Source: a virus
Length of the DNA: 52,720 bases
Strand: one strand, 5' to 3'
Virus record (IMG/VR): IMGVR_UViG_3300027782_000115
Span: 1 to 52,720 of that record
A model generated the notes under the pieces. That model did no database searches, was not told the origin of the DNA, and worked only from the letters and a program-made list of their open reading frames with translations. Below are positions 4,859 through 6,180 of this stretch, piece by piece. How positions within the stretch are numbered: the first letter of the stretch is position 1; each line of letters opens with the position of its first letter. Both the position numbers and the translations under genes were made by a program.

Positions 4859-4891
4859 GAGACCCTATGTAATGTAGGGTCTCTTTTTTTT
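4859..4891 (+). terminator. Rho-independent terminator
   Basis: Perfect GAGACCCT/AGGGTCTC stem, 9-nt loop, then eight T. The next -35 box begins 3 nt downstream. Confidence 0.92.
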
Positions 4892-4893
4892 GG

Positions 4894-4922
4894 TTGACAG
4901 ATTGGACATTGTGCGTTATAAT
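4894..4922 (+). promoter_or_regulatory. Early sigma-70 promoter
   Basis: TTGACA-17-TATAAT directly after the terminator. Confidence 0.9.
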
Positions 4923-4949
4923 AGCTACTTACACACACAGGAGCACACG

Positions 4950-5201
4950 ATGTTAACACAATGCATAGCATACGCTAAACTAGTTTACAACAAAAAATTA
5001 AATGCCTATAAAATGCAAATTGCATTTAATGTACACAAAGAGTTAGTGGGCACTAACTACAAAATGCGTTTTCCTGTACAAGCAAAATGCAACTATGTTA
5101 GTGGGGACTTACTTGCAGAAGATTTACAAAGTGAAGTGCAACGCACTATTGCAACAGCAAGCAAGCACCTGCGTACAACTAATATTGTAATAGTAGAGTA
5201 A
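4950..5201 (+). CDS. Hypothetical protein, 83 aa (first gene of the TC/CC-poor module)
   Basis: The ATG follows CAGGAGCACACG. The protein begins MLTQCIAYAKLVYNKK and is a mixed alpha/beta chain with no recognised family. Codon use differs from genes before 4900 and after 6250: AT-ending codons dominate and TC and CC dinucleotides are nearly absent. It is followed by a palindromic promoter at 5216. Confidence 0.62.
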   Translation: MLTQCIAYAKLVYNKKLNAYKMQIAFNVHKELVGTNYKMRFPVQAKCNYVSGDLLAEDLQSEVQRTIATASKHLRTTNIVIVE

Positions 5202-5215
5202 AGCATAGGGCTATT

Positions 5216-5249
5216 AGCACACTACTTGCATTTTGGACAGTAGTGTGCT
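5216..5249 (+). repeat. Perfect 11-bp inverted repeat spanning a promoter (copy 1)
   Basis: AGCACACTACT, 12-nt loop, AGTAGTGTGCT. It covers the -35 region and spacer and shares one base with the -10. It may be an operator or the 3'-end hairpin of the upstream mRNA. Copies lie at 5463 and 5933. Confidence 0.88.
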
Positions 5250-5254
5250 ATAAT
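5226..5254 (+). promoter_or_regulatory. Palindrome-embedded promoter (copy 1)
   Basis: TTGCAT-17-TATAAT. The -35 is weak compared with other early promoters, so an activator or low basal use is possible. Confidence 0.7.
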
Positions 5255-5279
5255 AACAACTTAGCAACAAAGGAACACA

Positions 5280-5438
5280 ATGCAAGACTTACAAGCACAA
5301 AAACAGCGTTTAGACAGTTTAATGTTTAGCGTACAAATTTTGCTAGACGAAATGGGTTTAGACGACGCATACACTGTGCAAAGTGCGTTTAATGCGTTAG
5401 CTTGTGCAGTAGACGAAGCTACAAGCGACAGCTACTAA
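5280..5438 (+). CDS. Small acidic hypothetical protein, 52 aa
   Basis: AAAGGA lies 6 nt before the ATG. The protein (starting MQDLQAQKQRLDSLMFSVQ) is predicted to be helical and acidic with no proline. No family is recognised. It lies wholly inside the stretch with no TC or CC dinucleotide and has palindromic promoters on both sides. Confidence 0.6.
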   Translation: MQDLQAQKQRLDSLMFSVQILLDEMGLDDAYTVQSAFNALACAVDEATSDSY

Positions 5439-5462
5439 TAACACTACAGCGTAAGGGTTATT

Positions 5463-5496
5463 AGCACACTACTTGCATTTTGGACAGTAGTGTGCT
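5463..5496 (+). repeat. Perfect 11-bp inverted repeat spanning a promoter (copy 2)
   Basis: Identical arms and loop to copy 1 at 5216-5249. Confidence 0.88.
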
Positions 5497-5501
5497 ATAA
5501 T
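5473..5501 (+). promoter_or_regulatory. Palindrome-embedded promoter (copy 2)
   Basis: TTGCAT-17-TATAAT, same arrangement as copy 1; it drives the gene at 5533. Confidence 0.7.
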
Positions 5502-5532
5502 AAGTTTTTAAACAATGCAATAGGAGCACACA

Positions 5533-5910
5533 ATGCAAGCAACGACATTTAATGTTAGCGACAAGCTGACACTAGCAGGTACAGAGACTAACACAGACAG
5601 CATTAGCACAACATACGACTGCAATGTACTAGTGCAACTTGCGGGCGACAGTATATGGGACTGCGAGCTAGAGGCAGTTACAGTTACAAGCATACACATA
5701 CACGAGCAATGGTGGGACGAATTGGAAGGCGATAGTAGCATACACATTACAGTGTGCTACACAGTTAACGGCGACACAGAGTACGAGGGCAGTTGGAGAC
5801 TGTACACAGACAGCGGCTTTGTAGATGCGATTAGTACACTGCTAGGAACAGAGGTTATGTTTACAGAGCAGGGTATGCAAGACAACGGCTATGCTAGCAT
5901 GGAGCTGTAA
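5533..5910 (+). CDS. Hypothetical acidic protein, 125 aa, no proline
   Basis: AGGAG lies 6 nt before the ATG. The protein is rich in Thr, Ser, Asp and Glu, predicted beta-rich, and contains no proline. All serines use AGY codons because TC is absent from the DNA. No signal peptide or known motif is seen. It belongs to the palindrome-promoter module. Confidence 0.6.
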   Translation: MQATTFNVSDKLTLAGTETNTDSISTTYDCNVLVQLAGDSIWDCELEAVTVTSIHIHEQWWDELEGDSSIHITVCYTVNGDTEYEGSWRLYTDSGFVDAISTLLGTEVMFTEQGMQDNGYASMEL

Positions 5911-5932
5911 CACTACAACGTGTAGGGTCTTT

Positions 5933-5965
5933 AGCACACACTTGCATTTTGGACAAGTGTGTGCT
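5933..5965 (+). repeat. Perfect 11-bp inverted repeat spanning a promoter (copy 3, covarying)
   Basis: AGCACACACTT, 11-nt loop, AAGTGTGTGCT. Both arms differ from copies 1 and 2 at the inner positions in a complementary way, so pairing is kept while sequence changes. Confidence 0.88.
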
Positions 5966-5970
5966 ATAAT
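5942..5970 (+). promoter_or_regulatory. Palindrome-embedded promoter (copy 3)
   Basis: TTGCAT-17-TATAAT; it drives the gene at 5998. Confidence 0.7.
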
Positions 5971-5997
5971 AAGTTTTTAAACAGTAAAAGGAAACAC

Positions 5998-6180
5998 ATG
6001 TCTAGACATCATTTAGTAGTATTTGCAAACTATTGCAGAGACACAGGCTTTACGCTTGTAGAGGCCGTTAAGTACGTGGGAGACAACTTAGAGACAGACG
6101 CAATTGACGACGAGATCGCGTATGCATATGAGGCAACATACGAAGAGCTTATGCAGTTTGTAGAGACCCAGACAGCGTAA
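5998..6180 (+). CDS. Small hypothetical protein, 60 aa
   Basis: AAAGGAAAC precedes the ATG. The protein is acidic in its C-terminal half and helical (starts MSRHHLVVFANYCRDTG). TC and CC reappear in this gene but remain rare. No family is recognised. Confidence 0.6.
   Translation: MSRHHLVVFANYCRDTGFTLVEAVKYVGDNLETDAIDDEIAYAYEATYEELMQFVETQTA

Follow-up and report, generated by a model that had tools for sequence, protein, structure and literature searches.

Absence of TC and CC from the sense strand of small-gene islands in uncultured phages

We analysed a 52,720-nt stretch of virus DNA (IMG/VR record IMGVR_UViG_3300027782_000115, positions 1 to 52,720, one strand; hereafter the window), in which a short array of tiny genes with predicted promoters and terminators is depleted of the dinucleotides TC and CC, together denoted YC, on its coding strand (Table 1). 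The 83-aa coding sequence at the start of this island retains YC at a Phe-Pro that is conserved among its homologues, and family searches with the 52-aa protein returned no match.

Table 1 Features of the YC-depleted locus in the window, with the basis of each assignment.
Feature	Position	Strand	Basis
YC-depleted island	4897..6167	+	Maximum-scoring segment, 9 YC in 1.27 kb
YC-free core, 760 nt, 0 TC/CC	5169..5928	+	Dinucleotide counts, recoding control
Terminator-like hairpin and T-run ahead of the island; arms retain CCC and TC	4860..4892	+	Sequence
Promoter-like TTGACA-N17-TATAAT, first gene	4894..4922	+	Predicted from sequence only
CDS, 83 aa, YC-poor (4 YC vs null mean 20.2)	4950..5201	+	Recoding null
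Promoter-like TTGCAT-N17-TATAAT under 12-bp dyad TAGCACACTACT/AGTAGTGTGCTA, YC = 0	5215..5254	+	Predicted
CDS, 52 aa, YC = 0, Pro absent	5280..5438	+	Counts, recoding
Degenerate terminator taacactac...aagggttatt; CAC replaces the outside form CCC	5439..5462	+	Sequence, predicted
Second dyad promoter, core identical, YC = 0	5462..5501	+	Sequence, predicted
CDS, 125 aa, family A1; YC = 0, Pro absent, Ser all AGY	5533..5910	+	Sequence
Partial terminator remnant; YC-free run ended by gtagggTC at 5928	5911..5932	+	Sequence, predicted
Third dyad promoter, stem TAGCACACACTTG/CAAGTGTGTGCTA	5942..5970	+	Sequence, predicted
CDS, 60 aa, YC-poor (6 YC vs null mean 15.1)	5998..6180	+	Recoding null

Within the core, TC and CC were both absent from the plus strand and each of the 143 C (18.8% of bases) followed a purine (AC 84, GC 58), as a preliminary description of this DNA had claimed, although the length it gave, 758 nt, falls short of the 760 nt counted. 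The complementary dinucleotides were present (GA 43, GG 34), which bears out its view that the bias is strand-specific; its statement that the encoded proteins have no proline and only AGY serines holds for both the 52-aa and the 125-aa protein, and the sparse TC/CC that it placed at about 4890–6180 agrees with the maximum-scoring segment. The second-longest YC gap in the window was 123 nt, and no other dinucleotide, alone or paired, came close to {TC, CC}, for which 76.9 sites were expected in the gap compared to 24.4 for the runner-up pair. At the rate seen in the window itself, all 143 C would follow a purine with a probability of ~10−42, and the longest YC gap in first-order Markov simulations of the window (n = 30) was 129 nt. 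The codon-shuffled control proposed earlier was run as 20,000 synonymous recodings with flanking codon usage: those of the 125-aa gene averaged 27.6 YC and never had fewer than 13, those of the 52-aa gene averaged 13.9 and never had fewer than 3, so that zero was reached for neither. Gap statistics, simulations and recoding together rule out chance as the cause of the gap.

Using a log-odds scan for YC depletion, we found, at about 50 non-identical IMG/VR loci, tiny-gene clusters with no YC on the sense strand for 0.4–2 kb and with depletion extending up to 3.5 kb; the related loci were all on uncultured contigs. The 125-aa A1 protein as query recovered 20 contigs, in all of which the A1 gene had zero YC, with runs of up to 1288 nt, and wider searches yielded 80 A1 loci (36–90% identity) plus further island genes and neighbouring-gene loci. 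About 60 loci (repeats included) had a YC score >20 in gene orientation, while their complement-strand score showed nothing above background except at L037, a minus-strand piece of genome G001. The AT-rich genome G014 had weak complementary segments (scores 29–32) compared to an island score of 222. Each of the fully read genomes G001 (353 kb), G002 (280 kb) and G014 (275 kb) carried one island, and islands sat on either genome strand, yet always sense to their genes. Many had zero YC over 1.0–2.0 kb; the longest zero-YC run was 1969 nt (G016), and the islands of G014 and G015 spanned 3.2–3.5 kb with very few YC. Repetition of the rule in about 50 non-identical contigs rules out an assembly artefact, and the presence of just one island in each fully read genome, sense to its genes whichever strand it lay on, likewise rules out a genome-wide property or replication-strand bias.

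Several lineages were represented, including contigs of 275, 236 and 57 kb reached via another island family. Islands in lineages other than that of the window lay at L271 27–1996, G014 219725–222931 and G015 79856–83414 (minus), and their promoter and SD style differed from the window lineage. In G001 and G002, the small-gene region with the island had a G+C content of about 0.46–0.49, compared to about 0.41 for the remaining genome. A scan of the 94-kb G007 record revealed no YC island, psbA-type genes, searched for in eight records as a clue to the host, were not found, and no A1 relatives were confirmed in bacterial genome contigs.

Islands consist of arrays of tiny genes (40–150 aa), many with their own predicted TTGACA/TATAAT-like promoter, and are modular, such that the same genes recur in varying order; by crude clustering, at least 44 unrelated protein families are under the YC rule. 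Searches of PHROGs, Pfam, NCBIfam, PADLOC, PDB sequences and PDB folds gave no clear match to a known function for island proteins; there was one match to a viral fold, of unknown name, and an Rfam search at E ≤ 0.1 gave no match. The predicted fold of A1 is beta-rich (pLDDT 93) and had no match in the PDB. A C-terminal motif resembling (S/T)E(Q/W)GMQxxGxAS(M/Y)(E/D) is common to many island genes of different lineages (window 5533–5910; L062 2496; L055 2505; G016 1217–1639; G015 82705–82243), which suggests that island proteins may form one superfamily.

Promoter dyads (e.g. AGCACAC...GTGTGCT) with stems of 6 bp or longer occurred at 46% of promoters inside islands and 19% outside, so the palindromic promoters described earlier are real but are not a defining feature of islands. 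Dyad arms vary among promoters yet stay complementary (AGCGCAC/GTGCGCT, AGCACAC/GTGTGCT in the early region, e.g. window 5215–5254), and judging from this covariation they look like a putative hairpin or operator. In the intergenic parts of islands, aaCCCtac...gtAGGGTTATT, the usual terminator, repeatedly becomes aaCACtac..., a single substitution (CCC to CAC) that deletes both CC steps at the cost of breaking the stem, and terminators just beyond islands retain CCC and TC.

We also compared island genes with homologues located elsewhere. Members of the MRDAIL family had 0–2 YC where they lay within an island or close to one and 11 in L067–L070, which have no island nearby, and family A3 had 0–3 YC in eleven island-type loci and 12–16 in L267, L268 and L272, with 2 in a partial match in L269. 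A1-type domains in L119–L158 had ordinary YC counts except in L149, which has its own YC-free run of 600 nt and an ordinary sister, L144. Ordinary YC in homologues lacking island context indicates that the rule tracks the island and not the protein. Homologues with normal TC/CC counts had been named in the preliminary description as evidence that could overturn the finding; such homologues exist, but because they lie outside islands they do not refute it. In many of the L119–L158 contigs, the A1 domain (AGDSIWD...YTDSGFE...EQGMQ) is part of larger proteins with LKKLAG-type repeats and normal YC, and a search for it in INPHARED phages gave no match. A lone YC-free gene lies outside an island at L003 5967–6129, where the promoter, 5′ UTR and terminator carry YC; it is possibly a cassette that left an island recently.

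Flanking codon usage predicted 696 family-weighted YC in island genes where 26 were observed, and proline dropped from 3.3% to 0.1%. NRC codons remained common, NYC codons were mostly replaced by NYA, and CT and TT fitted (1.02 and 0.96) a null model that simply bars YC and redistributes everything else. Among 26 A1 genes without YC, T alternated with C at 77 purine-preceded columns but at none of 85 pyrimidine-preceded columns; islands have stayed YC-free while diverging, and the constraint is therefore still maintained. Compared to ordinary homologues, YC was lost through changes of C to A, G or T, or of the 5′ pyrimidine to a purine. These results show that YC absence is maintained by purifying selection that targets the dinucleotide as such, whether the sequence is coding or not, in many related phages. 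Among the causes suggested in the preliminary description, avoidance of a single-strand motif was supported, while the two others fared poorly. A YC-specific cytosine deaminase that mutated the non-template strand would leave a strand-asymmetric footprint such as the one present, YC being the target context of APOBEC-type enzymes, but this origin is scarcely credible given that its products are not enriched (CT 462 and TT 824, compared to about 845 and 1032 had every expected YC been converted) and that terminators show CCC-to-CAC changes. The replacement of TC/CC by TT/CT expected under deamination was seen, but C-to-T made up only about 28% of replacements at 42 sites, the others being C to A, C to G, 5′ base change or other. 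The cassette-like genes, which occur in different orders and lineages, would fit a relic of a donor genome of odd composition, spread as recombining cassettes; this is highly unlikely in view of the deep divergence at zero YC alongside free T/C exchange after purines, indicating active maintenance, and of the normal YC in non-island homologues (L067–L070; L267, L268, L272; L144).

Relative to flanks, YC/C was 0.083 in coding sequence and 0.117 in non-coding sequence; coding sequence was depleted at least as much as non-coding, and therefore translation and ribosomes give no protection. Depletion was found in all three codon phases, such that the ban is frame-independent, and together with the depletion of non-coding parts this rules out a codon or tRNA effect. 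Selection for unstructured mRNA was also ruled out, as folding was not weaker than in composition-matched shuffles, and CRISPR PAM avoidance was rejected because both strands would have to be affected. Among YC-free runs of at least 250 nt, 11/44 start at a YC inside the predicted promoter of the first gene (−35 to −10), whereas promoters hold 1.9% of all YC, a contrast that is somewhat overstated as promoters are denser in islands than in flanks. Promoters inside islands are also YC-depleted, as expected with read-through RNA or with a constraint on DNA. A first count of YC in transcript bodies and promoters favoured the transcript, partly owing to gene choice, while a less biased count had small numbers and no clear difference; since these counts are small, we relied on run starts only. 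The zero YC across 1.0–2.0 kb suggests that recognition is single-hit and does not depend on a threshold density. We infer that selection acts on the transcript and that every single YC matters, which suggests that island messages must evade a UC/CC-recognising agent in the infected cell.

Explanations other than an RNA-cleaving activity were weighed against the same observations. Avoidance of modified guanines (GA/GG) in the template, as in 7-deazaguanine DNA modification, would be compatible with sense YC being template GR and with the FolE/QueD/QueE-like genes of the related phage Paride, but is most improbable, as a TGT/DpdA-type enzyme (PF01702) was absent from five island-bearing records, several of them incomplete, while controls were positive. 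A constraint at the DNA level, where a displaced non-template strand (R-loop or replication origin) meets a YC-preferring single-strand nuclease, is quite unlikely. It would account for the single island per fully read genome, the restriction to the sense strand, the equal effect on coding and non-coding sequence and the run starts at promoters. T4 endonuclease IV prefers TCA and residual YCA is the rarest context in islands (0.55 of flank frequency), yet terminators and a Phe-Pro motif bias the contexts of the residual YC. Furthermore, the G001 and G002 islands coincide with no cumulative-skew extreme that is distinct from the effect of gene orientation, the gene content of islands varies freely, the YC-free gene at L003 5967 is isolated outside an island, and a nuclease gene was not identified. 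Evasion of Rho, under which the island would be transcribed as a unit that Rho cannot terminate, perhaps at times of weak translation, is unlikely, even though the banned dinucleotide class is exactly what Rho prefers: its primary RNA-binding site recognises 5′-YC dimers (PMC9160355), and rut sites are pyrimidine-rich and G-poor (PMC12350095). The depletion is on the RNA strand and frame-independent, internal intrinsic terminators are degraded too, as though read-through were wanted, and the occurrence of Rho in most bacteria would account for a rule shared by several phage lineages. However, Rho requires several spaced YC in unstructured C-rich RNA, such that a lone YC should be near-neutral, whereas the longest runs contain no YC at all; translated RNA should be spared, yet coding sequence was not, and YC is not avoided by flanking genes. 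As the factor recognising UC/CC, Rho is less likely than an endonuclease.

The reading that we favour, with a probability of roughly 0.4, is that island transcripts may be shielded from a single-hit RNA factor recognising UC/CC, most simply a YC-specific endoribonuclease, which would account for the strand, the frame-independence, the stringency and the small variable genes. Island genes would be expressed while this activity, belonging either to the host (a defence or stress RNase) or to the phage (shut-off), inactivates other messages. Messenger RNA without ACA resists MazF in cells that produce this toxin, and island mRNAs would have a natural resistance of the same kind. The small, fast-changing island genes could then be counter-measures or takeover functions for that very time. 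No YC-specific RNase is known to us, and no matching factor was found. Sequence-specific toxins cut single-stranded RNA only (PMC5408214), E. coli MazF at ACA (PMC9102682), but terminator stems, which would be double-stranded in RNA, have likewise lost CCC inside islands. Flanking genes have similar promoters and normal YC, so an RNase would require a special expression time for the island. The one-island-per-genome pattern calls for an additional reason. Genes that are YC-free on their own but carry YC in their 5′ UTR (L003 5967) are perhaps relics, and transcript and non-template DNA are not cleanly separable. More tentative is the wider proposal that several jumbo-phage lineages have one operon cluster without UC/CC, expressed while a YC-recognising activity inactivates all other host and phage transcripts.

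To our knowledge, YC-free islands have no precedent in the part of the literature covered. The closest likeness is to ACA-less mRNA in the presence of MazF, in that transcripts missing one short motif outlast an RNase cutting at that motif, but the islands are natural, involve a two-base motif and extend over an entire multigene cluster including UTRs and promoters. Rut sites share the dinucleotide class and its reading on the RNA strand (PMC9160355). In islands, by contrast, YC is wholly absent, translated RNA is included and there is no threshold behaviour. Phage genomes avoid restriction sites, for example in the first-transferred DNA of T5, where a defined region is also purged of a motif, whereas the island ban is strand-specific, concerns two bases and matches no restriction site. 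RNA viruses suppress CpG and UpA partially and genome-wide, which is likewise dinucleotide selection at the transcript level, while the island ban is near-absolute and limited to one island. The Arenbergviridae PA5oct and Paride are jumbo phages with large tiny-gene arrays, and the window terminase is 54% identical to that of Paride over 98% (a comparison of the terminase alone), but a scan of the Paride genome revealed no YC island.

The near-absolute ban over 1–3 kb, the deep divergence and the loss of proline indicate a strong, general selective agent that is undescribed in the literature covered. The ban reveals the specificity of this agent (Y then C, on the RNA strand) ahead of the agent itself, such that a direct search is feasible. 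Islands also offer a sequence-only route to phage genes whose expression is probably tied to special conditions, and they may show how expression could be kept stable during infection. If the proposed protection from a UC/CC-recognising activity is true, each would be a naturally occurring expression system of a single operon, and its presence would mark genes for anti-defence or takeover.
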